A stretch of 34,226 bases of DNA from positions 1-34,226 of the IMG/VR virus record IMGVR_UViG_3300021365_000001. One strand, written 5' to 3'. The DNA is from a virus. A program made the position numbers and the translations under genes. How positions within the stretch are numbered: position 1 is the first letter of the stretch; every line of letters begins with the position of its first letter. The notes under the pieces are model-generated. The model made no database searches. It saw nothing but the letters and a program-made list of their open reading frames with translations, and was not told the origin of the DNA. Positions 1 to 34,128 of this stretch are shown here, one piece after another.

Positions 1-127
1 ATCTCAGCAAATTTTATTTCTTCTGTCATTTTTTCCCTTTCGAAAAAAAGATATGGTTTTTCTTGAGTAAAACAGAGAGTTTCTTTTAAAACTGGCGCGG
101 TATCACCAGCAGTTCTCTCACTTAAAA
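1..127. repeat. Terminal redundancy, left copy (circular-assembly overlap)
   Basis: These 127 bases are identical to the last 127 bases of the window. They lie inside the protease-scaffold gene, which reads open across the join, so the molecule is circular or circularly permuted with a 34,099 bp unit. A length of 127 is a common assembler k-mer, so it is most likely an assembly overlap and not a biological terminal repeat. Confidence 0.95.
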
Positions 128-536: not shown

Positions 537-542
537 ATTACC

Positions 543-1723: not shown

Positions 1724-1725
1724 CT

Positions 1726-2307: not shown

Positions 2308-2900
2308 TAAACGTCCTCATAATAATAACAAGCAACTGCTATTTCAACGACTTGAGAAGTGTTTCCTGTTGGGGGTGTATATTTAATTCCTAAGCTTTTA
2401 TTTTTTGGGATTATCAAGCCATCTGCTGCAATAGGAATCCTCTGACTAGTTGAACCGGATCTTGTCGTTAAATAATTTGACCCATTTGTGAAAGTTTTCC
2501 CAATTGCTCCTTTATATGCAATTCCGTCAAAATTTTCTTCGCTGCCAAAGTTTCGAACTCCTTTAATCGGAGTTTCAACCGCATCATCAACAATAGTCCC
2601 TGATGTCGGATTCTTTAAAAGAACAATCCTTGAATCACCGCTTCCGCCAGTTGAGTTTCCTAGTAAATAAAAGACGGCTTCAACGACAAGAGTTTTACCA
2701 AAAGCGTTTGTATTTTTGATAAAAATCAATGCTGATTCAGTATCAGAATTCAACGTTATTTCTTCTGTGTTGATATTGAAAGCCTCATTTCTAAAACTAG
2801 ACTCAAGGATTTCACTTGCAATGATTGACCGAACCCAAGCCCTATTGGTACTGTCCACTTTCAAATATATTACTTCTCCCGTCCCGTTTTCAATTCTCAT
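2307..2900 (-). CDS. Putative virion surface protein, paralogue A (197 aa)
   Basis: Best-defined member of the paralogous set. It begins with NGTG and KVDSTNRAWVRS, followed by alternating beta-prone segments, a NSTGGSGDSRI turn, NPTSGTI, an AYKGAIGKTFTNGS element and YTPPTGNTSQVV near the end. This build suggests a compact beta-sandwich of the sort found in head fibres, decoration proteins and tail spikes. The start forms an ATGA overlap with the preceding gene. No enzyme motif is seen. Virion location is inferred from its place inside the head operon. Confidence 0.62.
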   Translation of the reverse strand: MRIENGTGEVIYLKVDSTNRAWVRSIIASEILESSFRNEAFNINTEEITLNSDTESALIFIKNTNAFGKTLVVEAVFYLLGNSTGGSGDSRIVLLKNPTSGTIVDDAVETPIKGVRNFGSEENFDGIAYKGAIGKTFTNGSNYLTTRSGSTSQRIPIAADGLIIPKNKSLGIKYTPPTGNTSQVVEIAVACYYYEDV

Positions 2901-3277
2901 GATAAAATCTCAATAAGCAATTCATTGTTTTTTTCTAAAAGATTAATAATTTTTTCAAGCTTCAGACTATTTTCTTCTTTGCTGAATTCATAAAGAATCA
3001 AAAGTTCATCACTAGCATTGCAATTTGACAAATCAGCATTTAAAAAAACGGTCCTTCCTTTTGTTTCTCCATTAGAGATTGATTTTGAAGGATTGAAAAT
3101 TAAATCACCTGTAGTCACATTGATAACAGAAACAAGAGATTTAAAATCGGATTCTTTTATTTCTAAACGCCTTTTTAATGGTTCAAAAGAATATTTTTTG
3201 CAAATCTTTGTGTTAGACGGAACAAAGTTTCCTGGACTTATAACGTTTCCAAATTTATCACGTTTTATTGCGTTCAT
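2897..3277 (-). CDS. Hypothetical protein preceding the surface-protein cluster (126 aa)
   Basis: Unrecognised protein of 126 residues, coupled by ATGA overlaps to both neighbours, so certainly part of the late operon. The first 90 residues are mixed. The C-terminus (EENSLKLEKIINLLEKNNELL) is a short heptad-like coiled coil that could mediate oligomerisation. It may be an anchor or chaperone for the surface proteins encoded directly after it, but nothing beyond position supports that. Confidence 0.55.
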   Translation of the reverse strand: MNAIKRDKFGNVISPGNFVPSNTKICKKYSFEPLKRRLEIKESDFKSLVSVINVTTGDLIFNPSKSISNGETKGRTVFLNADLSNCNASDELLILYEFSKEENSLKLEKIINLLEKNNELLIEILS

Positions 3278-3756
3278 CTTCTTACTCGAATCACGTTTGT
3301 TCTCTCATCAATGTTCACTGTGTGCTCTTTTCTTTTTGAAAGCCAAATTGTAATAAAAATATTAATTAAGAAACTCGCAATTGATCCAAAAACCATAAAA
3401 GTTGTTACCATTCCTTGAAAAGTTGATATTTTATCCTCAACACTTCTCAAACCTTTTGAAAGCTCCTTGATTTGCTCGTTAGATGTTGCCAGGTCTAGAC
3501 TGTAAAGACGATTATTTTTCTCAATTTGTTCAATTTTCCATGACTCAAGTCTTGCTACTCGTTCACTAACTGTTGATATATTCTTTTCAATGACTTGCGC
3601 TCTGTGCTCAATCCGTTCAAGACTTTTCAAGATTAGCTTGTCAATCTCGCTTGTCGTCTCAGCTCCTGCAATTGTTGAAAAAAAAATGATCAAAAACAAA
3701 ACAAAGCATTTAAGAAACAATCCCAAAACCGTTGCCAGGCTGTTCAAGTTCCCCAT
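3274..3756 (-). CDS. Membrane protein with signal peptide, coiled coil and C-terminal transmembrane segment
   Basis: From ATG 3756 the protein has 160 residues. A hydrophobic N-terminal segment (residues about 8-30, ending TIAGAETT) looks like a signal peptide. A long charged helical region with heptad character (LKSLERIEHRAQVIEK onward) follows, then one transmembrane helix (FMVFGSIASFLINIFITIWL) and a short basic tail. ATG 3756 has GGAAAA in front; the in-frame codon at 3789 has no ribosome binding site. The gene overlaps the portal-MuF 3' end by 47 bases. The build resembles phage holin- or XhlA-like proteins and spanin-like envelope proteins, but the position inside the head module is odd. 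Function unassigned. Confidence 0.6.
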   Translation of the reverse strand: MGNLNSLATVLGLFLKCFVLFLIIFFSTIAGAETTSEIDKLILKSLERIEHRAQVIEKNISTVSERVARLESWKIEQIEKNNRLYSLDLATSNEQIKELSKGLRSVEDKISTFQGMVTTFMVFGSIASFLINIFITIWLSKRKEHTVNIDERTNVIRVRR

Positions 3757-6112: not shown

Positions 6113-7513
6113 TTAAAAAACCTCTTTATTTTGTCTTATCGCAATCCCTGCGTTTCCTTTTGGTAACTCAAACTTAATTTTCGAAAAATTCAAAAGAGCT
6201 TGAGAAGTAGCATCAACTTGATCATTATTAGCAGCATTAGGGAAAGTCACAAGTTCTTCTATATAGTCCTTAATCCAATTACAATAATTTTGATTTGGTA
6301 GAAAAACATTACCAGAATCAAAAAACGGTGATACTGCTTCAAGATTTGCTTCTTTGCTAGAATTATTTTCTTGAGCAATTAAACCCGGCACTGTTGTTTT
6401 TAGATCGTCGATAATTGCTGGCCCATTCGCTTTTGCTTCAATAATTTTACGCCTAGCTAGCGGGTATTTATTTGAAAAAAATATCACTGCTTCTTTAGCT
6501 CCTACAAATCCCGTTCTTTTTCTGAATTGGTCAATCAGATAAAAGTTACCGTTTGACCTTCCCCAAACTTGGCCGACTACGTAAGAGCCGTCAGTGGTTT
6601 TTTTAAAAGACATGTCCCAACTTTGAATGATCTCTTGAAAACTTGCAGGAAGCTTGTCATAAAAACGCAAACTATCTCGTTTTATGATTCCACCTTCTTG
6701 AGCTGCCGGCCTATTTGCATAAAGGCCCGTCCATACTTGTTCGGATATTGCATTTTTTGTTTTTAAAAGTTCTTTCCTGTCAAAACGTTCAGGACATAAA
6801 GCCTCGCCAATTTTCCTGCCCATGGGATCGTTTTTTTCTGCTAATGCAGGCAATCTTATCAAGTTCCAATCGTCTCCGTGCTCGTTAATTAAGTAACCAG
6901 TTAAATCGAGTTCGTGCCACCGAGTCATTAAAACGATTATTGTTGTTCCGGGCTGCTTTCTTGTGTAAAGAGTACTGTCAAACCATTCTGCATTGCGTCT
7001 TTGATATGCTTTTGATTTTGCTTCAGCCCAGTTTTTCACGGGATCATCGATAATCATTAAATCACCGCTTTTACCTGTGATGGGTCCACCAATTCCCACG
7101 GAAGCCATTGAGCCGCCTTCAGTTGTTAGCCAAAAATTACTTGCTTTTGAATCTTTTGCCACTTCGACTTCAAGTTTTGGATTATGCAAAAACTCATTTC
7201 GAACTTGCTTGCCCCAGCTTTCAGCATAATTTGCCTCATAAGTGGAAAGAATTACTCTTTTTTTTGGAAAGTTTTCAAGATACCAAATTGGCAAATATTT
7301 TGAGATAAATTGTGATTTACCGTGCTGTGGCGGGATGTTGACAATGATGCGGCCATTGCCTTTAAGTATCGCTTGAGTAATTATTTGCGAAACATAAACG
7401 ATGAAATCGTAAGGCTTCCAAAGGCCGTCACTAATGTACTCAGCTAAAAAATGAGGATATACTTTTGCGAGTTCAATGTAACTTATCGGAAGCTCTAAAT
7501 CATTCATATTCAA
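6113..7513 (-). CDS. Terminase large subunit
   Basis: ATPase and nuclease that pumps DNA into the prohead through the portal. The ATPase domain has a Walker A at residues 61-68 (PPQHGKSQ) and a Walker B at 152-157 (LMIIDD, followed by PVK), then MTRWHELDLTG, a typical coupling region. The RNase H-like nuclease domain shows Asp300 (QSWDMSF), Glu359 (IIEAKANG) and Asp431/Asp434 (NNDQVDATSQAL). The length of 466 is usual for TerL. The gene lies between the small terminase side and the portal and overlaps the small membrane protein upstream by 14 bases. Headful packaging is plausible with a circular map but is not proved by the sequence. Confidence 0.96.
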   Translation of the reverse strand: MNMNDLELPISYIELAKVYPHFLAEYISDGLWKPYDFIVYVSQIITQAILKGNGRIIVNIPPQHGKSQFISKYLPIWYLENFPKKRVILSTYEANYAESWGKQVRNEFLHNPKLEVEVAKDSKASNFWLTTEGGSMASVGIGGPITGKSGDLMIIDDPVKNWAEAKSKAYQRRNAEWFDSTLYTRKQPGTTIIVLMTRWHELDLTGYLINEHGDDWNLIRLPALAEKNDPMGRKIGEALCPERFDRKELLKTKNAISEQVWTGLYANRPAAQEGGIIKRDSLRFYDKLPASFQEIIQSWDMSFKKTTDGSYVVGQVWGRSNGNFYLIDQFRKRTGFVGAKEAVIFFSNKYPLARRKIIEAKANGPAIIDDLKTTVPGLIAQENNSSKEANLEAVSPFFDSGNVFLPNQNYCNWIKDYIEELVTFPNAANNDQVDATSQALLNFSKIKFELPKGNAGIAIRQNKEVF

Positions 7514-7676
7514 TGACGATGATTTGACAATTGTTTATCAGTTTTTTTCCCAAAAAATAAAAATAAAATGGTAAGGCTAAACCGAAAGTAACGAAGCAAA
7601 GTATAGTCCACAAAATAATGTGAATAAACATGCTAAAAAATCCAATATTGCACTTAATTTCATAAACTTTTCTCAT
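7500..7676 (-). CDS. Small membrane protein between terminase subunits (58 aa)
   Basis: ATG 7676 is preceded by AAAAGGAAT and overlaps the small-terminase stop, so translation is coupled. After a short polar N-terminus a hydrophobic stretch (GFFSMFIHIILWTILCFVTF) continues into a second (ALPFYFYFLGKKLINN), giving one or two membrane helices. A start at 7718 would add residues with no ribosome binding site of their own. Function unknown; the placement between TerS and TerL is unusual and may reflect a small inserted gene such as an exclusion or lysis accessory protein. Confidence 0.6.
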   Translation of the reverse strand: MRKVYEIKCNIGFFSMFIHIILWTILCFVTFGLALPFYFYFLGKKLINNCQIIVIEYE

Positions 7677-8140
7677 TATTCCTTTTCGTTTGTTTTCTTT
7701 TCTCTTAAAACATTCCAAAGATCTTGAATTGCTTTTTGTCCTTTTTTTGTCTTTCTTACTTTTTCGTAGATTTCACGTTTATTTTTGTCCTCAAGTTTTA
7801 TTTCCTGCTCTGTTTTGATGTATTGGCTGTCATGAAGACCAAAATAGTTTGAGAATAAAAACTTTGTGAAATTTGAGTTATATTCTCCCGTTAATGTTTT
7901 TTCCTCTTGATCGGCTTGAATCCTTAGCTTTGCCATTTCCACAACTTCATCAAGCCCATCATACCATTCTGAAATTGCTTTCCCCTTTTCGTAGTTGTGC
8001 AAAGTCTTTCTTGAAACACCCAAATACAAGCAGAGCCCGCTTACAGTAAACGGCTTTTCTTTTTCTTCCCATTCATCAAAATACTCAGCGCACTTGTGCC
8101 TTAGTTGAGAAGGATTGTATTTTGGTTTATTCGTTTCCAT
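7676..8140 (-). CDS. Terminase small subunit
   Basis: DNA-recognition subunit of the packaging motor. The N-terminus has a helix-turn-helix (residues about 32-55: TVSGLCLYLGVSRKTLHNYE), then helical oligomerisation segments, and an FTKFLFSNYFGLHDSQ element near 92-108 that matches the LKNNFGW-D motif typical of phage small terminases. The charged C-terminus would contact TerL. Its position immediately before TerL supports the call. The length of 154 residues is normal. Confidence 0.88.
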   Translation of the reverse strand: METNKPKYNPSQLRHKCAEYFDEWEEKEKPFTVSGLCLYLGVSRKTLHNYEKGKAISEWYDGLDEVVEMAKLRIQADQEEKTLTGEYNSNFTKFLFSNYFGLHDSQYIKTEQEIKLEDKNKREIYEKVRKTKKGQKAIQDLWNVLREKKTNEKE

Positions 8141-8158
8141 TTTAAATCACGATTGAAT

Positions 8159-8314
8159 TTAAGAAAGCAGTGCGTTTTTTTCACTCTCCAAGTTATCAGC
8201 TTTTTGTTTTTTGTTAAAGCTGTTCTCTTTTTCATCAAAGTATTGAGAAGGAATATCATATTCATATTGTTTGATCATCTGCCCGAATCCTATCAAATAA
8301 CTAAAGTTGTTCAT
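8159..8314 (-). CDS. Hypothetical small protein (51 aa)
   Basis: A 51-residue reading frame fills the space between the DNA-binding protein and the small terminase. It starts at ATG 8314 behind a good AAAGGGAAC ribosome binding site and overlaps the previous gene by 14 bases. It begins MNNFSYLIGFGQMIKQYEYD and becomes Lys/Glu/Asn-rich. No family is recognised. Spacing and ribosome binding site argue that it is translated. Confidence 0.62.
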   Translation of the reverse strand: MNNFSYLIGFGQMIKQYEYDIPSQYFDEKENSFNKKQKADNLESEKNALLS

Positions 8315-8486
8315 GTTCCCTTTTTAAATAATTATAAATATCTTTTAATTTATATTGAACGCCGTTTTTCCTGCACTTTCTGAATCGAATCCCTTTATTG
8401 TTTTTTCTGTTTTCTCTTAGTTGCTCAAGAGTATATCCAAAAATTTCACAAACTTCTAATTCATTGAGAAAAATTTGCTCATTCAT
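8301..8486 (-). CDS. AlpA/excisionase-like DNA-binding protein (61 aa)
   Basis: First gene of the leftward unit. The 61 residues fit a MerR-like winged helix: LNELEVCEIFGYTLEQLREN (recognition region), then GIRFRKCRKNGVQYKLKDIYNYLK, the usual wing and C-terminal helix of AlpA/Xis/HTH_17 proteins. No integrase is present, so a transcription-regulator role at the adjacent divergent promoters is more likely than excision. The start ATG 8486 overlaps the stop of a 10-codon leader frame. Confidence 0.7.
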   Translation of the reverse strand: MNEQIFLNELEVCEIFGYTLEQLRENRKNNKGIRFRKCRKNGVQYKLKDIYNYLKREHEQL

Positions 8487-8515
8487 AAGTAATGAAAATT
8501 ATTTATTTTAACCAT
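8483..8515 (-). other. Leader mini-ORF (10 codons) before the late operon
   Basis: ATG 8515 follows AAGGAACAAA, a good ribosome binding site, and reads MVKINNFHYL before a TGA that overlaps the ATG at 8486. The downstream gene has no strong ribosome binding site of its own, so translation of the mini-ORF could couple to it. It may equally be chance. Confidence 0.35.
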
Positions 8516-8525
8516 TTTGTTCCTT

Positions 8526-8556
8526 TTTATAATGTAAATATTAAATTTATTGCCAA
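8526..8556 (-). promoter_or_regulatory. Candidate promoter for the leftward (late) unit
   Basis: On the minus strand a TTGGCA -35 box (8556-8551) precedes CATTAT (16 bp spacer) or TTATAA (18 bp spacer) within TTTACATTATAAA. It lies just upstream of the leader mini-ORF and the first late gene. The sigma-70-like boxes are seen; activity is inferred. Confidence 0.5.
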
Positions 8557-8682
8557 AAAATAGCGTTTTTAATCAAAAAAACAGCTAATTCTCCAGCTTT
8601 TCAGCTTATCGTGTAAAATTCAACATTTAAAAACATTTAACGATTCATAGGCTTATGGTAAAAATCAACATAAACACAAAAA

Positions 8683-8726
8683 CTTTACATTGAAGGCTTG
8701 ACATTAAAAGCATGAACCTTTACATT
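8683..8726 (+). repeat. Three CTTKACATT direct repeats in the early control region
   Basis: CTTTACATT (8683-8691), CTTGACATT (8697-8705) and CTTTACATT (8718-8726) lie in direct orientation. The second covers the -35 box and the third the -10 box. The third extends to TTTACATTATAAA, repeated as a perfect inverted copy at 8526-8538 in the divergent promoter. These may be operator sites or simply similar promoter boxes. The rest of the 8,487-8,776 spacer holds AACATTTAA twice (8622 and 8632), CAGCT three times (8582-8606), and no gene. Confidence 0.5.
8698..8726 (+). promoter_or_regulatory. Early promoter, sigma-70-like
   Basis: A perfect TTGACA (8698-8703) is followed after 17 bp by TACATT (8721-8726), which runs on into ATAA. 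The first early gene begins about 50 bases downstream with AAAAAGGAAAAT before its ATG. This is the strongest promoter-like sequence in the window. Confidence 0.7.
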
Positions 8727-8776
8727 ATAAACAGATCGCAACACAGCGAAACACAATAACTTTAAAAAAGGAAAAT

Positions 8777-8905
8777 ATGAGAATTGAGTCATACAGGGAT
8801 TTTACAGAAAAAATGAGGGAATTAATCCCGCCTGAACACTCCACATTCATCTTCGATGATGAGGCTGGTCATGTAGGCCATCAAACAAATAATGTGTTTA
8901 AATAA
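8777..8905 (+). CDS. First early gene, hypothetical small protein (42 aa)
   Basis: ATG 8777 has a strong AAAAAGGAAAAT ribosome binding site and lies directly downstream of the early promoter. The 42-residue product begins MRIESYRDFTEKMRELIPPE and is acidic in its middle (FIFDDEAG). No family is recognised. First position in an early operon and small size are typical of host-takeover proteins, but this is only a positional hint. The stop lies 8 bases before the next start. Confidence 0.6.
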   Translation: MRIESYRDFTEKMRELIPPEHSTFIFDDEAGHVGHQTNNVFK

Positions 8906-8913
8906 AGGAAGCT

Positions 8914-9396
8914 ATGGAAAATCTACAACTAGAAAAAATTCTTTTAAAAATCTATTCATGTCTCAAAAAAGACATGATATTGCTGTTTGTAAGAGACAAA
9001 ACTTTATATGCAGGAAGTGCTTCAATTATGTTTAAAATTCCCGTGTCATTAGAAGACACTTGGATAGTTCCCCAATTTATGAGTGCAGATGAACTAAAAG
9101 AAGCAATCAAGATGATCTGCTTCGGGAACTACATTGAGAAAGAAAACTACAAAGAGAAAAACAGCCATTTTCATGGCACTGCTGAACGTCTTTTCTCAGA
9201 TAGAAAACAAGGTGAATGTGAGCAAATCATTTTAGATGTAAAACTACTAAAATTGATTTGTGACGTTTCATCACTTTTGGGAAAAGAGAAGTGCAAAAAG
9301 ATCAAAATCAATCCATCTAATGATCACCCAAACCGATTTTTCTTAGGCGATACAGAGAACACGGAAGCAGAAGTTATTTTGATGGGCATGAGATAG
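8914..9396 (+). CDS. Early protein with beta-clamp-like C-terminus (160 aa, function uncertain)
   Basis: The 160-residue protein has a good ribosome binding site (AAAGGAAGCT). Residues about 22-50 include a beta-hairpin-like stretch (DMILLFVRDKTLYAGSASI, then IPVSLEDTW). The C-terminal third reads as LDVKLLKLICDVSSLLG, then KKIKINPS and ends EAEVILMGMR. The terminal VILMGMR recalls the VVMPMR end of bacterial sliding clamps (DnaN), and the helix-strand order before it also fits the last clamp domain. Length is far below a full clamp (about 366). Homology is an inference; it could be an unrelated early protein. Confidence 0.55.
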   Translation: MENLQLEKILLKIYSCLKKDMILLFVRDKTLYAGSASIMFKIPVSLEDTWIVPQFMSADELKEAIKMICFGNYIEKENYKEKNSHFHGTAERLFSDRKQGECEQIILDVKLLKLICDVSSLLGKEKCKKIKINPSNDHPNRFFLGDTENTEAEVILMGMR

Positions 9397-9428
9397 TAAT
9401 TAATACAAACTTTAGAAAAAGGCATAGA

Positions 9429-9848
9429 ATGGAATATTCAGGAAAATATTTTAAAGCAGCAGAAACAAAAAGAGCCCTATTGGGCTCTTTTGAGCAAATA
9501 AGCATGGTTTTTGGAGAAGAAAAAGTTAATGAAGCTATTCACAATGGCGACCTTGTCCAATGCGATAGTGAAGGGAAGGATCTTCTAAGCATACAAGAAG
9601 CAGTAGATAATATCGTAAAAATGTATATAGATACAACTATAGGATATATTGAAAACAGAATTAATTTCAATGGTTTGTTTAACGGGATTGAAGCAAAACT
9701 GTATGATCTTGTGAGAGATAACGCACTTTCTTATGAAGAAAGAAAGTTATATAAAGATATACATATAACTAAAGCATTAGAAAATTGGTTTGAGTTGAAA
9801 AACGCAATCGAACTAATCGAGATGTTAGGAGGTAAAGTAAAATGGTAA
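9429..9848 (+). CDS. Hypothetical early protein (139 aa)
   Basis: Unrecognised, mostly helical 139-residue protein preceded by AAAAAGG. It has alternating charged and hydrophobic helices (AVDNIVKMYIDTTIGYIENR; DLVRDNALSYEERKLYKDIH) and no membrane segment, signal peptide or metal motif. Its last codons overlap the start of the next frame, so it belongs to the early operon. Confidence 0.6.
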   Translation: MEYSGKYFKAAETKRALLGSFEQISMVFGEEKVNEAIHNGDLVQCDSEGKDLLSIQEAVDNIVKMYIDTTIGYIENRINFNGLFNGIEAKLYDLVRDNALSYEERKLYKDIHITKALENWFELKNAIELIEMLGGKVKW

Positions 9849-10018
9849 ATATGGAAATGGGAATCAGCACACTAGACAACGCATATGACATAGGTAGGAA
9901 GTACAAGTATTTCCTCCAAGACTTACAATATGAACGAAACAAAATCGGTGAGCGGTGGGATTATCCGCCACAATGCCATAACTTGAAAATAGCAAGAAAG
10001 GTAAGAAATGAAAAATAG
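9842..10018 (+). CDS. Hypothetical small early protein (58 aa)
   Basis: A 58-residue frame starts at ATG 9842, overlapping the previous stop by 7 bases, with TAGGAGGTAAA, an excellent ribosome binding site, in front. It includes LDNAYDIGRKYKYFLQDLQY and then WDYPPQCHNLKIARK. No family is recognised. The consensus ribosome binding site and tight packing make translation likely. Confidence 0.62.
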   Translation: MVNMEMGISTLDNAYDIGRKYKYFLQDLQYERNKIGERWDYPPQCHNLKIARKVRNEK

Positions 10019-10172
10019 AAAGATGGTTGAAATTTCAGAAGAAACTCATTCAATTCTGAAAGAAGAAATTGAGGTATTAAAAGCGCAAAATCGATACAGT
10101 AATATCTCAATCCGATCCTTTGTGGATCAAGCCGTTTCTGAGAAAATAGAAAGGCTATATGCTGACATATGA
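10008..10172 (+). CDS. Ribbon-helix-helix-like small DNA-binding protein (54 aa)
   Basis: A 54-residue frame overlaps both neighbours and starts at ATG 10008 after GTAAGAA. The pattern RKMVEISEETHSILKEE (strand then helix) and NISIRSFVDQAVSEKIERL (second helix) fits the ribbon-helix-helix/Arc-CopG build common in phage and plasmid regulators. It could be an early repressor or accessory factor. The fold call rests on pattern and length, not a diagnostic motif. Confidence 0.58.
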   Translation: MKNRKMVEISEETHSILKEEIEVLKAQNRYSNISIRSFVDQAVSEKIERLYADI

Positions 10173-10440
10173 ATTAGACGTGGTTATTTACTCAGGATTT
10201 TTAGAAAGAAAGTATGAGATAGAAATCACTTATGAAATCATAGTGACTGAAACGAATCATTTTTTCGACGAAAATGATTTTGATGATTATTATGAGGAAC
10301 TTGAAATTGAAATCATTAGCGTTTCATCTCCAGACTGTAAAGAGTTGGAAAGTGAAAAATATTATACAAAATACAAAATCGCTATAGAACAAGATAGTGA
10401 ATCTATTGAATTAAAAGGAGAAAAATGCTCAATAAATTAA
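10159..10440 (+). CDS. Acidic hypothetical protein (93 aa)
   Basis: Very acidic 93-residue protein (a run of Asp/Glu around FFDENDFDDYYEELEIEI) with beta-prone ends. It starts at ATG 10159, overlapping the previous gene by 14 bases with AGAAAGG in front, and its 3' end overlaps SSB by 16 bases. No family recognised. Its acidity and position before SSB would fit a DNA-mimic or SSB-interacting protein, but this is speculation. Confidence 0.58.
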   Translation: MLTYELDVVIYSGFLERKYEIEITYEIIVTETNHFFDENDFDDYYEELEIEIISVSSPDCKELESEKYYTKYKIAIEQDSESIELKGEKCSIN

Positions 10441-10787
10441 TGTTGATCGGAAGACTAGGGAAAGACGTTGAAGTGCATTATACAAAAACCGGTGAGCCGG
10501 TTGCAAAGTTCTCACTCGCAACAAGTGAGAAGTACAAAGACAAGGAGGAAACAGAGTGGACAAACTGCGTGCTGTTCAGGAAAAATGCTGACAATGCCGT
10601 GGCCTTTTTAAAAAAAGGTGACTTGGTTTACATAGAGGGAAAGAAAAAAACGGGCTCTTATGTTGCCCAAGACGGTTCAAAAAAATACACAACTGACTGC
10701 ATCGTCTCAGTTTTTAGGAAGCTAACTAGAAGCGATTCGAGCAATCAAACTCAAGAACAAAACCGTGAAGACGATATCCCATTTTAA
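10425..10787 (+). CDS. ssb: Single-stranded DNA-binding protein
   Basis: Coats single-stranded DNA during replication and recombination and recruits partners through its tail. The OB fold spans residues about 1-100: MLNKLMLIGRLGKDVEVHYT, VAKFSLATSEKY, TEWTNCVLF and GDLVYIEGKKKTGSY. A short Gln/Ser/Asn linker leads to the canonical acidic tip DDIPF. At 120 residues it is a compact phage SSB. AAAGGAG precedes the start. The next gene looks like an annealing protein, a usual partner. Confidence 0.95.
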   Translation: MLNKLMLIGRLGKDVEVHYTKTGEPVAKFSLATSEKYKDKEETEWTNCVLFRKNADNAVAFLKKGDLVYIEGKKKTGSYVAQDGSKKYTTDCIVSVFRKLTRSDSSNQTQEQNREDDIPF

Positions 10788-10801
10788 AGGAAAAAGGAAA
10801 A

Positions 10802-11437
10802 ATGAAGTTAAAAACAAAAAATATAAAGGGCAAAGAATACGTTGAAGTTTCTGAGAGAATCAGAGCTTTTAGAATGCTTTACCCATCATGGAGCCTTGAA
10901 ACAGTTATTATATCAATAACTGATGAAAAAGTAGTCATGCAAGCAATCGTTAAAGATGAATCAGGTAGAATTATAGCAACTGGAACCGCTTATGAAATAT
11001 CCGGAAATTCACAAGTTAACAAAACTTCATACATTGAAAACTGCGAAACATCTGCGTGGGGACGTGCTTTAGGTAATTTAGGGATTGGGCTCGAAAGTTC
11101 GATTGCGACTGCCGATGAAGTAGAACAAGCATTGTATCGACAAAACTTAAACTTAAACTTAAATCAAAAAGGCCCTACTCCAGAAAATACACCAAAAGCT
11201 AAAAATGAGGAAAGTAATAATGAGGAAGAAAAGGAAGTTTTTCAAATTTCTGAAAAAGAGATTGAGGAAGTTGACGAAATTCTTATTAAAGCTTTTCAAA
11301 TTGGAGATATTCAAGAGTTAAGAAACTTTTATTCCGATAATTTAAAAAATTGGAAATCAAAATTCAATGAGGAGTCAATAAAAATAATCGTTTACGAAAT
11401 CAGTAAACTTGCTGAAATGATCGAGCAAAACACTTAA
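10802..11437 (+). CDS. Probable single-strand annealing / recombination protein (211 aa)
   Basis: The first 115 residues belong to a family frequent in phages next to SSB: KGKEYVEVSERIRAFRMLYP, a strand with VVMQAIVKDESGRIIATGTAYE, and the conserved NKTSYIENCETSAWGRALG then LGIGLESSIATADEV. The ENCETSA-GRAL-G-LGIG segment resembles the ExxTxAxxRAL motif of Rad52/ERF/Sak annealing proteins. An acidic linker (about 130-150) and a helical C-terminus follow. Strong ribosome binding site AAAAAGGAAAA. Position after SSB supports a recombination role; the family link is by motif only. Confidence 0.62.
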   Translation: MKLKTKNIKGKEYVEVSERIRAFRMLYPSWSLETVIISITDEKVVMQAIVKDESGRIIATGTAYEISGNSQVNKTSYIENCETSAWGRALGNLGIGLESSIATADEVEQALYRQNLNLNLNQKGPTPENTPKAKNEESNNEEEKEVFQISEKEIEEVDEILIKAFQIGDIQELRNFYSDNLKNWKSKFNEESIKIIVYEISKLAEMIEQNT

Positions 11438-11467
11438 AGGCTCGCCACAAGAAAGGAATCAAAACTC

Positions 11468-26530: not shown

Positions 26531-26958
26531 GTGTAAACCTCCGCTGTTATTAAAACGTTATATCCAAAAAAATAACTCTCCTCAACAATGTCCCGCTGAG
26601 GTTCAATTGAAAACTCCTTTATTTGCAAAACTGTTCCATTTAAAGAACGATTCGAATTAACAGCAGTGAATACACTTGTCCAAAGCTCATCAAGTAAGTT
26701 TTGCGCTTTTTCCGGGCTTTCAAAACTAACATCTTGAAGCACTAGCAAAAATTTAAGTTCAGCCATCCATGGTTGATTGATGTTTGAACGATACGGTGAA
26801 ATTTGATGGTCTAAAGTGTAAACACCAACCCAAGGAGTCAAATCTGGATTGGTGTTTAATGGTTCCTCCTTGAACACATTTACGCCACTATTAACAAGAG
26901 TTTGATCACTTGAAATTGTTGTTAGTAAAGAGTGGGAAATACTATTGACCGCTAACAT
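26527..26958 (-). CDS. Tail terminator-like protein (Mu gp37-like position, 143 aa)
   Basis: Probable tail terminator or completion protein. It reads LLTTISSDQTLVNSG, then LTPWVGVYTLDHQISPY, WMAELKFLLVLQDVSFESPE, LLDELWTSVFTAVNSNRSL, ending in YNVLITAEVYT. Alternating strands and one helix fit the gpU/DUF3168-like fold. It has GAGGAAAA before the ATG and overlaps its neighbours. The assignment is by position and pattern. Confidence 0.65.
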   Translation of the reverse strand: MLAVNSISHSLLTTISSDQTLVNSGVNVFKEEPLNTNPDLTPWVGVYTLDHQISPYRSNINQPWMAELKFLLVLQDVSFESPEKAQNLLDELWTSVFTAVNSNRSLNGTVLQIKEFSIEPQRDIVEESYFFGYNVLITAEVYT

Positions 26959-27430
26959 TTTTCCTCTTTATAAAATAGATATATGCAGGAATTACAATTT
27001 TCCTACCCTGCTCAACAGTTGGAAAAATCTTTCTTTTCGGGATCCTGTCATTACCGAATTCATGAATTGAAGCATAACCTGTTAAGCTTGATGCGCTGCT
27101 TTCTGTACTTTTAACTCTACCTCGTTGAGAAGTTGCGGAAACTTGAAAGTTTTCTTTTAATTTCCCTGTGTCTTGCAATATTTTATCAGAAAAGTTTTTC
27201 TTTCCCTTTCTTCTCATTGCAATCGTGATTGGTGAAAGCTTTTTCCACTTCAAAGTAGCATCTTCATGAAGCCCACCTTCTGCTTTAAAATTCCTGTCTA
27301 TCCATGCACGTAAAACAGTTGCAGCGGCTAAGTTTGCGCCTCTTGTGTCCTTTATTGCTTCCTCAGTTCCTTTAAGAGTTTTCAGAAGCTGAGGAAAGCC
27401 TTTAATCGTTGTGATTATTTTCAAACCCAT
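26942..27430 (-). CDS. Virion morphogenesis protein (phage_tail_S / Mu gpG-like, 162 aa)
   Basis: Head-tail joining protein. It shows the family hallmarks WKKLSPITIAMRRKGKK, ILQDTGKLKENFQ and YASIHEFGNDRIPKRKIFPTV, as in Mu gpG and P2 S-type proteins. AGGGA precedes ATG 27430, which overlaps the previous stop as TAATG. Position between the DUF1320-like adaptor and the terminator fits completion of the neck. Confidence 0.86.
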   Translation of the reverse strand: MGLKIITTIKGFPQLLKTLKGTEEAIKDTRGANLAAATVLRAWIDRNFKAEGGLHEDATLKWKKLSPITIAMRRKGKKNFSDKILQDTGKLKENFQVSATSQRGRVKSTESSASSLTGYASIHEFGNDRIPKRKIFPTVEQGRKIVIPAYIYFIKRKNVSGQ

Positions 27431-27888
27431 TAAAAATCCCTGTCAAATTCATCTTCTATCAAATCAGGGTCGACTCTTTGATAAATTGCTTCTCTATGAT
27501 CAAAAACAGGGTTGTAATCTTGCGTATTACTCCAAGCTGTTGTTCGAGGATTTCCATTTGAAGCTTTTATCGAGAAACCGTCTGTAGTCACCATCGCTGT
27601 TCCACTGCTTACGATTGACGCAATTCTTTCATCAAGATAAGTTTTAAGCTCTTGTGAATCGGTCTGGTTTCGTGTCTTGTTTAATATTCCCAAATAAGAA
27701 AAATGAATTGACAAATCTTTTGCAGTTTCATTATTCGATGAAAAAGGAATGGTGAAATGGCCACCAAGTCGTTCATTTACAACAAGCGAGCCGTGAACTA
27801 GCCAAAAATTCTCAATCTCATCTTGAGTGATGCCTTTTGGACTGTAAAATCCTGAAAACTCGCTGTAAGTTGCGTACTTGATAGCCAT
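27430..27888 (-). CDS. Head-tail adaptor (DUF1320 / Mu gp36-like, 152 aa)
   Basis: Head completion adaptor. The segment with GSLVVNERLGGHFTIPFSSN, then AKDLSIHFSYLGILNKTRNQ and ELKTYLDERIASIVSSGTAM resembles the DUF1320 pattern of an N-terminal helix bundle with conserved R-L and P-F positions. The ribosome binding site is AGGAAAA. It follows the glycosyltransferase genes and precedes phage_tail_S, the usual Mu-like order once the inserted genes are skipped. Confidence 0.74.
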   Translation of the reverse strand: MAIKYATYSEFSGFYSPKGITQDEIENFWLVHGSLVVNERLGGHFTIPFSSNNETAKDLSIHFSYLGILNKTRNQTDSQELKTYLDERIASIVSSGTAMVTTDGFSIKASNGNPRTTAWSNTQDYNPVFDHREAIYQRVDPDLIEDEFDRDF

Positions 27889-27893: not shown

Positions 27894-30656
27894 CTATAAG
27901 TATTCAAATTCATAAATATTAGTTTTTTCATCAAGAACTAGTTTAACGTAATTCTTTAAATCTTCAATATTTAAAAAGTGCGCACGCTCTGAACGTGTAG
28001 GAACTTTCCCAATATTATCACCAATATTCATCAATCTAGTTGCAAGGCCAAACTCAAATTCTATCCCACTTCCATTCGTCACCATCATAACAGCCTCTGT
28101 TAAGTACGGTAAAGAATCAGTCGCCATTCTAACCTGCTTCTTCTTTACTAACTCCCTCCAATATTCGATTGTGTCTTGGCACCTTTTAATCATTTCAGGA
28201 GTTACTTTTCTCCCGTTATGGTCCATCTCAAAACGGTTAAACTGAATCCAATCTCTCATCATGAGAAACTTAAAAAGATTCCTCTTGGATCCTTCTTTTA
28301 ACTCTCTCAACATCAATGGCAAATTTCTTGAAAATCTTTTTTGTCTTATTTCTTCAGTTTCATACCCAAAATGAGAAATGCAAACTTGATCTTGAGGAAT
28401 AAGAAAAGTTTTTCCACAACCATGATTCACTCTTGTTTCTGGATGCTCATGGACAATACCAAAAAACTTTATATTTTTTTTATTTCTAAAAATTCTGCAA
28501 GGTGTGTCCGTCTTTAAAAGTCCAGCTGGTTCAGTTGTAAAATGATGTTGAGCAACAGCGTATGAGTCAAACTGATTGCTTCTCAAATAACGCAAAAGAT
28601 TTTCTTGATTTATCAAAACCTCATCGTCATCAATCCACATGATCCACTCTTTAGTCGCTTTTTTTAAGGTTCTATTTCTTGCTTCTGCAAACCCAGTTTC
28701 AAGCGGGGATTTTATTCTAAAAACTTTTGCTCCAAAATCTTCCGCAACTCTCCAGGCATTTGATTTTTTTGATCCGTTATCGATCCCCACAATGATTTCA
28801 TCTGCAATTTGCTGAACAGATCGAAGCGTTTTTCCTAAACTCAATCCATCATCTTTGCAAATGATACAAACGGATAAAGTTTGAGGAATTGAATTAAGTT
28901 TTTCAACTGAATCAAGTTTCCCAATTTTCTTTTTTGAAGTCTTGAAAAAGAATGAATATTGGCCAAATATATTCTTGAAAAGATCCCTACCACCTGCAGT
29001 GAAAGTTAAAGAAAAACCTTCTTGTTCTCTAAACATTTGAAGGATTTCTTGTTCTGTAAAATCAAAACAATCGCTTGAGCTGTCAAAGTTGTTTACAGGA
29101 GTTGAAAAGAACAAATACCCATCTTCAGCTAAAAAGCTTTTTATTTTTTCAACAAATTCACACGGGTTTTCTTTTTTGTTCAATAAATCACTACAGATAA
29201 TTGCGTTTGCTTGAAAATCCATTTTTAAAGATTCAATTTTTTTTGTATAATAAAAATCGATATTTGTGATTTTATTTGAACTAGCAAAATTCTTAGCAGC
29301 TTCCACCCTTTCTTGACCCTCATCAACGCCAATAAATCTCAAGTGAGGCATTTGCTTTGCCACTGACATCATTCGGCCACTAAATCCACAAGCAAGTTCA
29401 AGAACTATCTCTCCAGGTTTCAAGCTTTTCAAAAAGTGGAACAATGGCAAATTTTCTGTCTTTGTCAAATTTAATTGGTCATTGCCAATTTCAATCAATT
29501 CCGAATTCTTATCAATCTTCCTATGGTTCAAATATTTATTTGCTCGATTGCTTTTCGATAAATTATTTTGAATTTCTCCTTCTAAAATAGAAGCAGAGTT
29601 TTTAAAATTAAACTCCTCACTTTTCCCAAGTGCTGACTGGTATCTTTTTTGATAAATTTCTTTATCATCTAATACTTTTGTGATTTCCTTAGCAAATTCA
29701 TCAATGAAGTTTTCGCTTTTTGGATTCAAAAAAACAGAATCGCTTTCTTTTAAAGTTTCAGGTAATGCACCAGCGTTTGTTGTTATGATCGGAGTTCCAC
29801 AACTTAATTGCTCCATGACCGTGATGCATGAAGTTTCTTCGAATTCTGTAGGGTACACATGCAAAGCGCAATTCTTTTGCAAGTCTTTCAAATCCGTCTT
29901 TGATAAAGGGCCCAGATTGACAACATTTGGAAGTTCTTCGCATCTTTGCCAAAGTGCTTGATAGAAACCTTGCATTTCTTTTGTTGTGTTGTCGTAACCG
30001 CAAACGTTCAACTGAATTTCAGGATCTATTGAGTATAATTTTTCCATAATCCCGCCAGGCTTTAGCAGGTTTTCAAGTCCTCTTTCTGGTCTTGATGAAT
30101 ACACAATTTGCTTTGATTCCCTTTTTTCTTCTGCATCAATAACATGTTCAATGTCATAAATTATTTTGTCGACTGCGTTAGGAAGCACGCCAACAAGGCT
30201 TTCTTTCAAATCGAAAACCCTGCAAACTTGCTCCTTATGGAATTCAGAAACACAAAATATTTTATCGAGAAATGGAAGTGACAAATTAATGTAACCTTGC
30301 ATTCTTCTTAAAGCCAGATCATGAAGCCATAAAAAGTTCAATTTGCTGTTGTATTTCTTCATGAAAATATGAGGAATTCTTTGCGCAAGTATCACGTCAC
30401 TAGGTACAGTTTCAGCATATTGCTCAAAGTTATCACCAAAAGGAGTTTGTTCTGTAATATTACCAATTGGCATATATTTGACATTATCAAAAATCCCGTG
30501 CTCTCTTGCATTGGTGAACATCATTACATCATGACCACGTTTTGCCATTTCACGGGCTAAGTAATAACCAGAACTTTCACTACCGCCAAGACTTTTGCCA
30601 TCTGAAATAGTTTTCCCATCAAAAGGCATTCCAGCCACATAAATCAAAATTTTCAT
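27894..30656 (-). CDS. Three-domain GT4 glycosyltransferase - methyltransferase - GT2 glycosyltransferase (920 aa)
   Basis: From ATG 30656, which forms an ATGA overlap with the gene upstream, the protein has 920 residues; the alternative TTG at 30683 lacks support. Residues 1-365 are a GT-B GT4-type transferase (GGSESSGYYLAREMAKRGHD, YSSRPERGLENLL at 186-198, PTEFEETSCITVMEQLSCGT near 269-288). Residues about 405-575 are a SAM methyltransferase with motif I LELACGFSGRM (419-429) and VDEGQER acidic loop. Residues about 595-830 are a GT-A GT2 domain (VCIICKDDGLSLGKTLRSVQ, WIDDDEV at 674-680). It sits between capsid and connector genes, so a virion protein or host glycan may be the target; that is inference. 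Confidence 0.9.
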   Translation of the reverse strand: MKILIYVAGMPFDGKTISDGKSLGGSESSGYYLAREMAKRGHDVMMFTNAREHGIFDNVKYMPIGNITEQTPFGDNFEQYAETVPSDVILAQRIPHIFMKKYNSKLNFLWLHDLALRRMQGYINLSLPFLDKIFCVSEFHKEQVCRVFDLKESLVGVLPNAVDKIIYDIEHVIDAEEKRESKQIVYSSRPERGLENLLKPGGIMEKLYSIDPEIQLNVCGYDNTTKEMQGFYQALWQRCEELPNVVNLGPLSKTDLKDLQKNCALHVYPTEFEETSCITVMEQLSCGTPIITTNAGALPETLKESDSVFLNPKSENFIDEFAKEITKVLDDKEIYQKRYQSALGKSEEFNFKNSASILEGEIQNNLSKSNRANKYLNHRKIDKNSELIEIGNDQLNLTKTENLPLFHFLKSLKPGEIVLELACGFSGRMMSVAKQMPHLRFIGVDEGQERVEAAKNFASSNKITNIDFYYTKKIESLKMDFQANAIICSDLLNKKENPCEFVEKIKSFLAEDGYLFFSTPVNNFDSSSDCFDFTEQEILQMFREQEGFSLTFTAGGRDLFKNIFGQYSFFFKTSKKKIGKLDSVEKLNSIPQTLSVCIICKDDGLSLGKTLRSVQQIADEIIVGIDNGSKKSNAWRVAEDFGAKVFRIKSPLETGFAEARNRTLKKATKEWIMWIDDDEVLINQENLLRYLRSNQFDSYAVAQHHFTTEPAGLLKTDTPCRIFRNKKNIKFFGIVHEHPETRVNHGCGKTFLIPQDQVCISHFGYETEEIRQKRFSRNLPLMLRELKEGSKRNLFKFLMMRDWIQFNRFEMDHNGRKVTPEMIKRCQDTIEYWRELVKKKQVRMATDSLPYLTEAVMMVTNGSGIEFEFGLATRLMNIGDNIGKVPTRSERAHFLNIEDLKNYVKLVLDEKTNIYEFEYL

Positions 30657-31600
30657 AAAGAACCGTTTAGAAGTGGAATCCAAAATTGCTGCGCAACTTC
30701 ACTCCATGTTAAGAAAAAGTTACCATCTAAGTTGATAACTGATTTTTTAATTGATTCCTTTTTTTCAATTAAAAACTCTTTTGCGTCGTGATATTTTCCA
30801 ACCGTTTCTTTTAGTGCCCCAATTTTGTTCACTACAGGAGCTGCGCCCATGTATTGGGCTTTTACAGCATTCAAACAATAAAGCTCACTACGCGGATTAT
30901 TTAATGGATGGAACCAATATTTTGCTTTCCCTAGTATTTTGTAGAACTCACTTTTTGAAAGTTCACCAAGCAACTCAACATCTTTAAAACGTTTTAAATA
31001 TTCTCTTAAATTATTGTCTCCTGAATATGAGATCTTTAGTTTCAAAGATGGATTTTTCTTTTTTACATCTTCCCAGTAAAGCTCAAGAAAATCTAAAATC
31101 CCACGGTTTGGGCAAGAGCAATACAAAAGAAAATCATCTTTCTTTTCGCTTTTAAACTTATCAAGCAAATCAATATCAATTCCATGTGGAAAGATTATTT
31201 TTTTTGATCTTACGACAAAAGGTTCATTTCTTTCATGAAACTTTGTGAGATAGATTATTTTTTGAAGGTTTTTTGTGTTGTAGGTCCTGTTAATTTCAGA
31301 AGACCACAAATAGCAATTTTTGTTTGATTCGGGGATTTTATTAAGGAATGCAGTATTCTTAAAGAAAATGGTTTTTGTTGATTTAAGATGTGCTTGGTTG
31401 AAGCTTTGGAGGGGTAGGTATCTTACATTTCGGAAAGTCTTTTTTTCTTTCCCAGTTTTAAAAACTGAGACATCAAAATATTTGCTTAACTCTGTTGCTA
31501 AATAAACTACGCATTCCTCAGATCCTTTCAAGTTTGTGTCAATTTGTTCCGGATCCCACTCAAAATGAGTACGATTAACAACAAAATTAAGTTTTTCCAT
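30653..31600 (-). CDS. GT-B-like glycosyltransferase (315 aa)
   Basis: Second glycosyltransferase of the pair. It has an N-terminal Rossmann-like half (NFVVNRTHFEWD; LKGSEECVVYLATELS corresponding to GSE motifs) and a C-terminal half with LLYCSCPNRGILDFLELY, GELSKSEFYKILGKAKYWFH and YCLNAVKAQYMGAAPVVNKI, then GALKETVG. Its length is at the short end for GT4-type enzymes. It is translationally coupled to the fused enzyme by ATGA. Sugar donor and acceptor are unknown. Confidence 0.82.
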   Translation of the reverse strand: MEKLNFVVNRTHFEWDPEQIDTNLKGSEECVVYLATELSKYFDVSVFKTGKEKKTFRNVRYLPLQSFNQAHLKSTKTIFFKNTAFLNKIPESNKNCYLWSSEINRTYNTKNLQKIIYLTKFHERNEPFVVRSKKIIFPHGIDIDLLDKFKSEKKDDFLLYCSCPNRGILDFLELYWEDVKKKNPSLKLKISYSGDNNLREYLKRFKDVELLGELSKSEFYKILGKAKYWFHPLNNPRSELYCLNAVKAQYMGAAPVVNKIGALKETVGKYHDAKEFLIEKKESIKKSVINLDGNFFLTWSEVAQQFWIPLLNGSL

Positions 31601-31607: not shown

Positions 31608-31844
31608 TTACTCTATTTTTGGTTTTCTACCTCTTTTTTTAAATGTTTGTTCAGTATTAGCATATTTTTCGACTACTTCAATATTTTTTAACGTATTTGT
31701 TTCTAAATTAGCGTATTTAGGATGTTTTTTGAGAATATCCATATTTTTTTCAACATGTTCAGGCCCAGCGTTTTCACAATCAATCATGAAGCGTTCAAGC
31801 TGTTCAAAACTACTGTCAAAAGGTTTGCAAGGTGATACCGCCAT
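31608..31844 (-). CDS. Small head-region protein with basic C-terminus (78 aa)
   Basis: A 78-residue helical protein ending KKRGRKPKIE, an AT-hook-like basic tail that could contact DNA. It has AAAGGAAAAAT before ATG 31844. In Mu-type order this is the slot of gp35, directly after capsid and before the adaptor genes. No family is recognised. Confidence 0.6.
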   Translation of the reverse strand: MAVSPCKPFDSSFEQLERFMIDCENAGPEHVEKNMDILKKHPKYANLETNTLKNIEVVEKYANTEQTFKKRGRKPKIE

Positions 31845-31867: not shown

Positions 31868-31904
31868 ACGGCTAGCAATTTAAGACTAGCCGTTTTTTAT
31901 TTTA
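31868..31904 (+). terminator. Hairpin after the capsid gene, plus-strand terminator-like
   Basis: An 8-bp perfect stem (ACGGCTAG/CTAGCCGT, 31868-31875 and 31886-31893) with a 10-base loop is followed on the plus strand by TTTTTTATTTT. On the minus strand, where genes run, it has no T run, so it may act as an mRNA 3' stabiliser or block antisense transcripts. Confidence 0.6.
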
Positions 31905-32864
31905 CTGACTTGAATTACAATTCAACAACAAAGCCCCTAAAGGTTTTGCCAGAATTTTTTCCGCTTGATAGTAACCAATCTCAATAAAATCAGCTTTTTT
32001 GAAGCTGTCATAAGGATGCCGCTCGACATTCATATTCGGCAAACCGGGTTGAGTCCAGCGCAAAGTGTAACCGAATGAAGGCTCCTCAATTGAAGGTCTG
32101 TCAGTGACATAATAAATCAAAACGTTATCTTTCCAGATACTTTCTAATTGTAGCCCTTGACCTTCCTCGCCATTGTTTTTGAAAGCTTTACCGATTAAAA
32201 CTTTCTCAACTTGAAACAAACTGGCAATCTCTTGCACTGTCGCATTGACTCCACCGCCGCTTACACCAGCAGCTTTAGTTTTGTTAATGATTTTTTCATT
32301 TCGAGAAATGCTTTTGAAAGCATCAGTACCGAAAGCAATTGCATTGGGCCAATAACCGGTTGCTGTCTCGATATGGTCCATCATTGTATTAATGTCTGAA
32401 TACGGATCAGAGTTTACATAATCAGTCCAGGAGCTAGAAACGTTTGAACTTGTTCCTACGTTTGTCGCGCTGGTAACATGATTTGCAATTCGATTCTCCC
32501 AGTCTAAAGTGAGCTTGTCCATCAAAAAACCGGAACGGCTTCTTTCAAGATTGCTCAAAAAAAGTGGGTCAGAATTTTTTCTTTCTTCAAGAGTTATCTT
32601 TGCTTTCATTGCATAGTTAGAAGCAAAATAAGAACTTGAACCTACTCCAAACTCAGCTTCGTTTGCTTCTGCTCCAGGTGACCTTCCTGTCTCTACAATC
32701 CGAAACAAGTCCTCCTGCTTGTATTCAAGAATCATGTCCGATTGATGCGTTACAGGAACAACAGGGAAAAGCATGTCTGCAATCATCCCTTTAGGTCTGT
32801 AATTCAGCATCAAGTTTGTTAAATGTTTGTCCACATGGACATTATTTGCGTTAACGTATCCCAT
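31902..32864 (-). CDS. Major capsid protein (320 aa)
   Basis: Main shell subunit, HK97-type fold expected. ATG 32864 has AAGGCGGTG before it; GTG 32870 is less likely. It begins MGYVNANNVHVDKHLTNLML, has ADMLFPVVPVTHQSDMILEY, a GRSPGAEANEAEFGVGSSSY loop, AIAFGTDAFKSISRNEKI, LIGKAFKNNGEEGQGLQLES and SFGYTLRWTQPGL, which fit a capsid family common in phages with Mu-like proteases. It follows the decoration-type gene and the protease-scaffold. Length is typical. Confidence 0.86.
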   Translation of the reverse strand: MGYVNANNVHVDKHLTNLMLNYRPKGMIADMLFPVVPVTHQSDMILEYKQEDLFRIVETGRSPGAEANEAEFGVGSSSYFASNYAMKAKITLEERKNSDPLFLSNLERSRSGFLMDKLTLDWENRIANHVTSATNVGTSSNVSSSWTDYVNSDPYSDINTMMDHIETATGYWPNAIAFGTDAFKSISRNEKIINKTKAAGVSGGGVNATVQEIASLFQVEKVLIGKAFKNNGEEGQGLQLESIWKDNVLIYYVTDRPSIEEPSFGYTLRWTQPGLPNMNVERHPYDSFKKADFIEIGYYQAEKILAKPLGALLLNCNSSQ

Positions 32865-32878
32865 GATCACCGCCTTTC

Positions 32879-33634
32879 TTAGTATTGAACATCAAGCGAG
32901 CTTGTCGCATAATGAGGAGTTGAAAAATTAATAGCAGCATTAAAAGTCGATCCTGAATTTCCAGCAGCACTTGCCTGTAAAGCACGCCCCACAATCAAAT
33001 CTCCTGAATCTGCATTGATAAAATAACCGCCAGTTGTCACTTTTAATGAACGATTGACTGTGACAACGTCACCCGCTGCAACCATCATTGTTCCCATAAC
33101 TCGATACTCAGCAGTTTGGCCACTTGCTACAGTAGTTTGCAGAACTCCGTCAGTTAGATCTCCAGTTGCTGCAACATTACCCGTCGCTGTATCAATTGCT
33201 AGACCTAAATTGGAAGCTGCTGAAAGATCGGTTTGAGTTGCAAACGTCAAATTCGAATCTGAAATGTTCGGAGAACTAAAGTTAAAAAAACCTTCATTGA
33301 CTGAACCGGATGCGCAACTATACATCGCTTGACCGACTTCAGAAGTCCCACGATCTGCTACAACAAAATAACCCGATGTTGTCACTGTAAGCTTGTCACC
33401 TTTTGTGATTGCTTCACCAGCAGTGAACTTTTCAAAGCCGAAGGTGGTAATTGTGACACTTTTGCCACTCAAACCACCAAAACAAAGAATCCCAGTTGCT
33501 TCCGCTCCTGTATTCGCAATTTTCCCGTCATTATTTGCAATTGCTTTATAGATATGACCGGTTCCAGCTACTTCTGTGTTTAGATTCTCAGCAGCAGTGA
33601 TCGAAACGCCGATTGTTTTATTTTTTTGTGACAT
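32879..33634 (-). CDS. Capsid decoration-type protein with duplicated domain (251 aa)
   Basis: Beta-rich protein resembling DUF2190-type capsid-associated proteins. Two similar halves can be seen: ITKGDKLTVTTSGYFVVADR ending in a FNFSSP segment, and VNRSLKVTTGGYFINADSGD ending in INFSTP, which suggests internal duplication. AGGGAG precedes the start and TAATG links it to the scaffold stop. It may stabilise the shell or form vertex or surface structures. Confidence 0.75.
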   Translation of the reverse strand: MSQKNKTIGVSITAAENLNTEVAGTGHIYKAIANNDGKIANTGAEATGILCFGGLSGKSVTITTFGFEKFTAGEAITKGDKLTVTTSGYFVVADRGTSEVGQAMYSCASGSVNEGFFNFSSPNISDSNLTFATQTDLSAASNLGLAIDTATGNVAATGDLTDGVLQTTVASGQTAEYRVMGTMMVAAGDVVTVNRSLKVTTGGYFINADSGDLIVGRALQASAAGNSGSTFNAAINFSTPHYATSSLDVQY

Positions 33635-34128
33635 TAGATTCTCCCTTCACTGATTGCTAAAGTAAACCGTTTGTATTCTTCAGCCTTTTTTGGATTTGCT
33701 GAAAAAAACAATTGAGACGCTTCAAAATAATCTTTGCCCGTATTTGCTTGGATCTTTGAAACTTCAGAAAAGATAAACTCGTCAATGCGCAAACCGCTTT
33801 CTGAAAAATCGGATGAATCCGAGCTTTCGGTGCTTGGTAAACTGTCATTTTTATAAGATCGTGAAACCTCTTGCATTAATGAAGCAGGCAAAAACAATTC
33901 ACTCCCTTCTGAAAAGTTTGCTTTTTGTGCATCAAGAGCAATGTTGATTTTTTCTCTCATCGCTGGAGAAAGTTTTCCATCTTTCACGTCTTGATCAAAG
34001 TCAGCTAAAACTTTTGTTTTTGCTTCTGAGAAAAGAACGTTTCTATTTTTTTCTTTGAGAGCTGCATTTTCTGCTTCAATTTGTTGAAGCCTTTCTTGAA
34101 TCTCAGCAAATTTTATTTCTTCTGTCAT
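33634..34128 (-). CDS. Nested scaffold protein (Mu Z-like), internal start
   Basis: An in-frame ATG (34128, equal to 29 on the left copy) lies 169 codons inside the protease gene, with AAAGGGAAAAA before it. The 164-residue product has a coiled-coil N-terminus (EIQERLQQIEAENAALKEKN), a Ser-rich middle and a charged helical C-terminus ending in AISEGRI, as expected of a scaffold removed by the protease. Mu I/Z uses the same layout. Translation from this start is inferred. Confidence 0.82.
   Translation of the reverse strand: MTEEIKFAEIQERLQQIEAENAALKEKNRNVLFSEAKTKVLADFDQDVKDGKLSPAMREKINIALDAQKANFSEGSELFLPASLMQEVSRSYKNDSLPSTESSDSSDFSESGLRIDEFIFSEVSKIQANTGKDYFEASQLFFSANPKKAEEYKRFTLAISEGRI

Follow-up and report, generated by a model that had tools for sequence, protein, structure and literature searches.

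The virus DNA analyzed here is IMG/VR record IMGVR_UViG_3300021365_000001, and the window is its whole stretch of 34,226 bases. A single minus-strand gene in the window encodes a protein that combines two glycosyltransferase (GT) domains, GT4 and GT2, with a methyltransferase (MT) domain between them. This gene, the fusion, is an open reading frame without interruption and is present in one copy in the record. The fusion, its domains and the surrounding head and tail genes are as follows.

27894..30656, minus strand: GT4-methyltransferase-GT2 fusion gene, 920 aa
29547..30656, minus strand: GT4 domain (GT-B fold), residues 1-370, with E274-x7-E282 and R192-G193
28932..29465, minus strand: class I SAM methyltransferase domain, residues 398-575, atypical (GExLEH absent, D to E in motif I)
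28257..28883, minus strand: GT2 domain (GT-A fold), residues 592-800, with D676-D-D678-E679
27897..28256, minus strand: C-terminal region, residues 801-920, largely helical, found in most close relatives
30653..31600, minus strand: gt315, a 315-aa GT4-like protein with a predicted GT-B fold, E-x7-K replacing E-x7-E
31608..31844, minus strand: 78-aa ORF between the capsid gene and gt315, without a family match
31902..32870, minus strand: major capsid protein (MCP), phrog_1005, E 2e-68, candidate acceptor
32879..33634, minus strand: two-repeat Ser/Thr-rich head protein, matched in part by phrog_673, DUF2190-like by eye, candidate acceptor
27430..27888, minus strand: neck gene CON1, directly downstream of the fusion, with syntenic homologues after the fusion in relatives
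26942..27430, minus strand: tail completion/Neck1 protein, phrog_26

Upstream of the fusion are gt315, the 78-aa ORF, the MCP gene and the gene of the two-repeat head protein; downstream are neck and tail genes, with a tail-tube gene (Phage_tube_2) beyond CON1 and the Neck1 gene. The placement between capsid and connector genes given by the initial annotation, which was made from the sequence, is therefore correct. The record also encodes terminase, portal and tape measure proteins. By comparison with relatives, a head protease gene is split over the contig ends, with its N-terminal half at 3-536 and its C-terminal half at 33634-34128. Because the two halves lie at opposite ends, the record probably represents a circularly permuted genome that is close to complete. 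The GC and GC3 content of the fusion matches that of most neighbouring genes, which does not suggest a recent insertion. Just past the capsid gene there is an inverted repeat (31868-31893) with eight-base arms ACGGCTAG/CTAGCCGT and a 10-base loop. No T-run follows it, and it is a possible attenuator or processing site.

The three enzyme domains that had been described in the 920-residue chain were recognized by Pfam above the curated cut-offs and are also seen in the AlphaFold2 model. The GT4 profile PF00534 matches residues 180-339 (E 1e-15, 57.9 bits against a cut-off of 26.4), PF13439 matches residues 24-163 above its cut-off, the class I methyltransferase profile PF13847 matches residues 413-544 (E 2e-13, 50.6 bits against 27), and the GT2 profile PF00535 matches residues 595-734 (E 4e-13, 49.9 bits against 23.3). 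The E-x7-E motif of GT4 enzymes is present (E274, E282). Neither a TPR (searched with Pfam) nor a membrane segment was found in the fusion protein. The model, built with 51 aligned sequences, has a mean pLDDT of 88.8 and a pTM of 0.85; it consists of three well-folded domains, and residues 371-395 form a linker of low confidence. Its N-terminal part resembles GT4 enzymes and superposes on MshA with Z 33.8 and an rmsd of 2.6 over 341 residues (Foldseek, VIA-align), as a GT-B fold should. SunS/ThuS and SAM methyltransferases are also among the Foldseek matches. In BFVD, multi-domain GT or methyltransferase proteins from uncultured phages were matched with a poor superposition of the whole chain. 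The PDB sequences nearest to the GT2 domain are GmaR (E 2e-13) and SunS (E 2e-11). The score against the SunS equivalog TIGR04195 (NCBIfam) is far below the cut-off, 54.6 bits against 350.

Fifty-one full-length members of the family were aligned. All 51 match the MT and GT4 profiles and 49 match PF00535 in the GT2 domain. Recurrence of the MT and GT4 matches in every relative is far beyond chance and rules out a chance or annotation artefact. In the GT2 domain D676, D678, E679, H736 and E737 are invariant (51/51). In the GT4 domain R192 is found in all 51 members, E274 is kept in 47 and E282 in 48. For pairs that permit an estimate, dN/dS of the fusion is about 0.06-0.23, a rough range since synonymous sites are near saturation; these values indicate that selection on the fusion is purifying.

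The MT domain of this phage departs from the rest of the family. The stretch E-x2-E-H at 490-494, the GExLEH signature, is present in 50/51 members, and the exception is the phage studied here, which has D490, N493 and K494 at this place and E for D at position 420 in motif I, a combination unique among the 51. Its MT domain is 18-27% identical to those of near relatives, against 44-57% for the GT domains, the biggest such deficit in the family. To judge from the alignment, the domain was either exchanged or drifted. D445 is retained, and SAM binding may persist; methylation in this phage appears uncertain. Since its MT domain is the family outlier, the weak element in this phage is METHYLTRANSFERASE (the methyl 'cap'), and the earlier suggestion that the glycan is capped by methylation is weakened for this member, which has lost a signature kept in the 50 others.

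The second glycosyltransferase gene, gt315, ends where the fusion begins: the fusion start codon overlaps the gt315 stop in the ATGA at 30653-30656, which makes translational coupling of the two genes plausible. The E-x7-E motif is not found in gt315; it has E-x7-K, as do 9/11 aligned relatives. A fold search with gt315 matched GT-B structures, and a PDB search by sequence gave chance antibody matches only. Judging by these features gt315 is GT4-like, perhaps catalytically altered, and may serve as a partner subunit or a modified one. Where GT4 enzymes have E-x7-E, the gt315 family has the motif S/A-E-L-F/Y-C-L-N-A-V/I/L-K. Members of this family were seen at loci L014-L017, L031, L253, L262, L013 and L279; in the last two the gt315 homologue is itself fused to a methyltransferase.

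A search of 50,697 phage genome records gave no match over more than 80% of the fusion length. Plasmids gave partial matches only, none over more than 80% of the query. Scans of viral contigs with single sequences found nothing for the fusion and no confirmed relative for the MCP, because the patterns were too strict; the alignment-based scans of IMG/VR succeeded and found many relatives of the fusion. The database search for the same domain order that had been proposed as a check thus recovered a whole family. The gene order MCP, fusion, CON1, CON2, CON3, TUBE is repeated in relatives. At loci L025 and L030 the fusion adjoins the capsid and connector genes or is placed between them, but it is encoded on the other strand from the head or tail genes; the position is thus retained where no operon is shared. 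In the papers searched, no account was found of a phage in which a GT-MT-GT fusion adjoins the capsid gene. The initial annotation knew of no described phage system with this layout, and this holds among isolates; the GT4-MT-GT2 layout is new there and common among uncultured phages.

The linkage between the fusion and the capsid gene was assessed from both sides. A capsid-led scan of IMG/VR used only the MCP as the query, without the GT, and returned 80 loci. A full fusion closely follows the capsid gene at 53/55 loci with at least 3.2 kb of downstream sequence, a sample biased to the clade of fusion-bearing phages because the capsid alignment was seeded with their capsids. The median capsid-to-fusion gap is 360 bp over all complete cases. 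The two exceptions are L317 and L318, matches equal in score and identity; on the L318 contig a fusion (L037) lies about 7 kb downstream of the capsid gene. In the GT-led scan, a capsid gene was found within 3.5 kb upstream of 45/62 (73%) three-domain fusions with enough upstream sequence, compared with 11/55 (20%) single-domain GTs (Fisher p 1.3e-8, an optimistic value since the counts include overlapping or near-copy loci and some contigs are repeated).

Reordered fusions (GT2-GT4, GT2-MT-GT4 and GT2-GT4-MT) follow capsid genes of the SU10 type or of the type in the window on many contigs. In the fusion tree, phages with the window-type capsid and those with the SU10-type capsid separate with full support; rows without a capsid gene on their contig are found on both sides of the split. 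In four phage isolates whose capsids are related (24-29% identity), no GT is annotated in the corresponding slot, which shows that a phage with this capsid fold can do without one. The linkage could partly be due to shared descent of a block. In Arthrobacter phage Ottawa a 767-aa protein without a Pfam match (L358, 5339-7642) is encoded between a related capsid gene and neck genes.

The family is also present in bacterial chromosomes. The fusion was found in 5/58 nearest genomes, one of them a SAR324 MAG. On all contigs of sufficient length, the best full-length chromosomal matches adjoin phage head or tail genes, which speaks against a stray host cell-surface gene acquired by chance, the outcome named beforehand as fatal to a virion role. 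Weaker chromosomal matches (25-29% identity; L179, L184, L186) had no recognized head gene in the stretch. On a 982-kb deltaproteobacterial MAG contig, about 20 kb encode an M15 peptidase, TerL, portal, protease, decoration protein, MCP, a GT4, the fusion and tail proteins, with host genes on both sides. No tyrosine recombinase was found within about 97 kb of this cluster, and the sole serine recombinase match lies about 350 kb off. In a related genome the head-tail genes follow this order too, adjoining an ATP synthase gene. Such compact clusters, embedded among housekeeping genes in SAR324-group MAGs (L173, about 2700-22800; L348, about 1-11440), have a short tape-measure-like ORF and no recognized replication gene. 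They look like gene transfer agents or defective prophages. Retention of the fusion in such a stripped chromosomal cluster fits a function in the particle. GT4-GT2 fusions with no recognized methyltransferase occur in records of Bacillota, Hebobacteria and Armatimonadota (L181, L182, L183, L185), and a tail-tube homologue lies close to the fusion in L181-L183.

Experimental proof of virion glycosylation by phage-encoded enzymes exists for few phages. We know of no fusion of GmaR or SunS/ThuS to a GT4 or to a methyltransferase. GmaR of Listeria and SunS/ThuS of the glycocin systems, nearest to the GT2 domain in sequence or fold, modify side chains of proteins or peptides; GmaR adds GlcNAc to flagellin (PMC9638930). 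It has TPR and antirepressor parts, and Pfam TPR is absent from the fusion. A closer likeness in composition is A064R of PBCV-1, a virus-encoded single protein with two GT domains and a methyltransferase domain, which builds and methylates the outer part of the capsid-protein glycan and is predicted to be soluble and cytoplasmic (PMC9614988). We liken the two by description: A064R has 638 aa, belongs to a chlorovirus of a eukaryotic alga and is made of other GT families. Its domain order, GT-GT-MT, is not that of the fusion, GT4-MT-GT2, and it extends an N-glycan, whereas the fusion is proposed to start on protein.

In mycobacteriophages such as Che8, phage GTs are thought to glycosylate the capsid and sometimes the tail tube (Freeman et al. 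2023, as summarized in PMC12619734 and PMC11256854). Phage-encoded GT genes are present here as well. Maravista is a relative of Che8 and Rita, both with glycosylated capsids; its GT genes are located close to the 3' end of the genome and not in the head operon as here, and the accounts consulted report no GT-MT-GT fusion. The podovirus ctKR88 (MW202524) has a GT2-TPR-GT4 protein, a multi-domain GT fusion just after the capsid gene as in our phage; further GT-like genes follow and a methyltransferase gene lies in the same region. However, its capsid is of the SU10 type, the domain order is reversed, the methyltransferase is outside the fusion, and the record has no described function. On the whole the system looks, from its genes, like virion glycosylation. 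What is new compared with these precedents is the domain order, the enzyme families, the core head-module position and a lineage without isolates.

The fusion is characterized by its domain make-up, its conserved catalytic residues and a tight, long-lasting linkage to the capsid gene. The nearness of the GT2 domain to GmaR and SunS points to a protein acceptor; with solubility and the capsid linkage added, our best guess for the target is the capsid shell. We consider it fairly likely that the fusion is a soluble phage glycosyltransferase that acts in the cytoplasm on a capsid-shell protein, likeliest the MCP or the neighbouring head-decoration protein, while heads assemble or earlier. The GT2 domain, as kin of protein glycosyltransferases, would put the first sugar directly on a side chain. 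A second sugar would be added by the GT4 domain, perhaps together with gt315, and the MT domain would methylate the glycan in most family members, a step that may be altered or lost in this phage. The idea of a dedicated system tied to the virion is thus supported in outline by the capsid linkage, the division of the tree by capsid type, the SunS/GmaR kind of GT2 and the compact clusters. Against the capsid reading, the broad GT2 type is also found in many bacterial genes whose targets are unknown or different.

GT4 and GT2 enzymes often make cell-surface glycans, and a GT near structural genes in 'Gratiaviridae' was interpreted in this sense (PMC8008677). The fusion might likewise alter a glycan or lipid of the host surface, for serotype conversion or superinfection exclusion, with its late-operon place reflecting only the timing of expression. 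We regard this as unlikely given the constant place beside the capsid gene in many phages with two capsid types, the retention of the fusion in compact chromosomal head-tail clusters, a chain without a membrane segment and a GT2 domain nearest to protein glycosyltransferases. Quite unlikely, too, is an acceptor elsewhere in the virion, such as the tail tube, neck or fibre, in place of the capsid shell. Connector and tail-tube genes are syntenic neighbours as well, and in mycobacteriophages glycans are reported for subunits of the tail tube as well as of the capsid (Freeman et al. 2023, cited in PMC12619734). However, the place of the fusion is most constant with respect to the capsid gene, phages with SU10-type capsids included, and connector or tube genes are sometimes kilobases away (e.g., in L095).

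Glycosylation of hypermodified bases in phage DNA is very unlikely indeed. Virus-encoded GTs that modify DNA do exist (Pyle et al. 2024, as cited in PMC12619734), but the linkage seen is with the capsid gene and not with replication genes, and a methyltransferase and a SunS/GmaR-type GT2 do not fit this role. Among ten proteins encoded in the other half of the genome, Pfam revealed no thymidylate-synthase-like or hydroxymethylase gene; the recognized ones are SSB, a dCTP deaminase/dUTPase and a possible replication P-like protein.

The capsid-shell reading can be widened to a broader proposal, which we hold tentatively, at a little under an even chance. In a large tailed-phage lineage, entirely uncultured, and in the compact clusters of the SAR324 group resembling gene transfer agents or defective prophages, a one-chain GT4-MT-GT2 capsid-glycan enzyme would be a core gene of the head module. 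Capsid glycosylation would then be an old and standing trait and not an occasional one, with SU10-type phages carrying reordered fusions and an exchangeable or fast-evolving MT domain varying the glycan.

For annotation, the fusion is a landmark that marks a capsid clade. If the capsid reading is true, one conserved gene beside the capsid gene would predict glycosylated particles in dozens of uncultured phage genomes and would offer a one-gene system for test-tube reconstitution. It would also have a parallel in algal giant viruses, whose machinery for capsid glycans is made of other enzyme families. The presence of the fusion after the capsid gene in dozens of uncultured phages suggests that attachment of sugars to the shell belongs to the core traits of this whole phage group.
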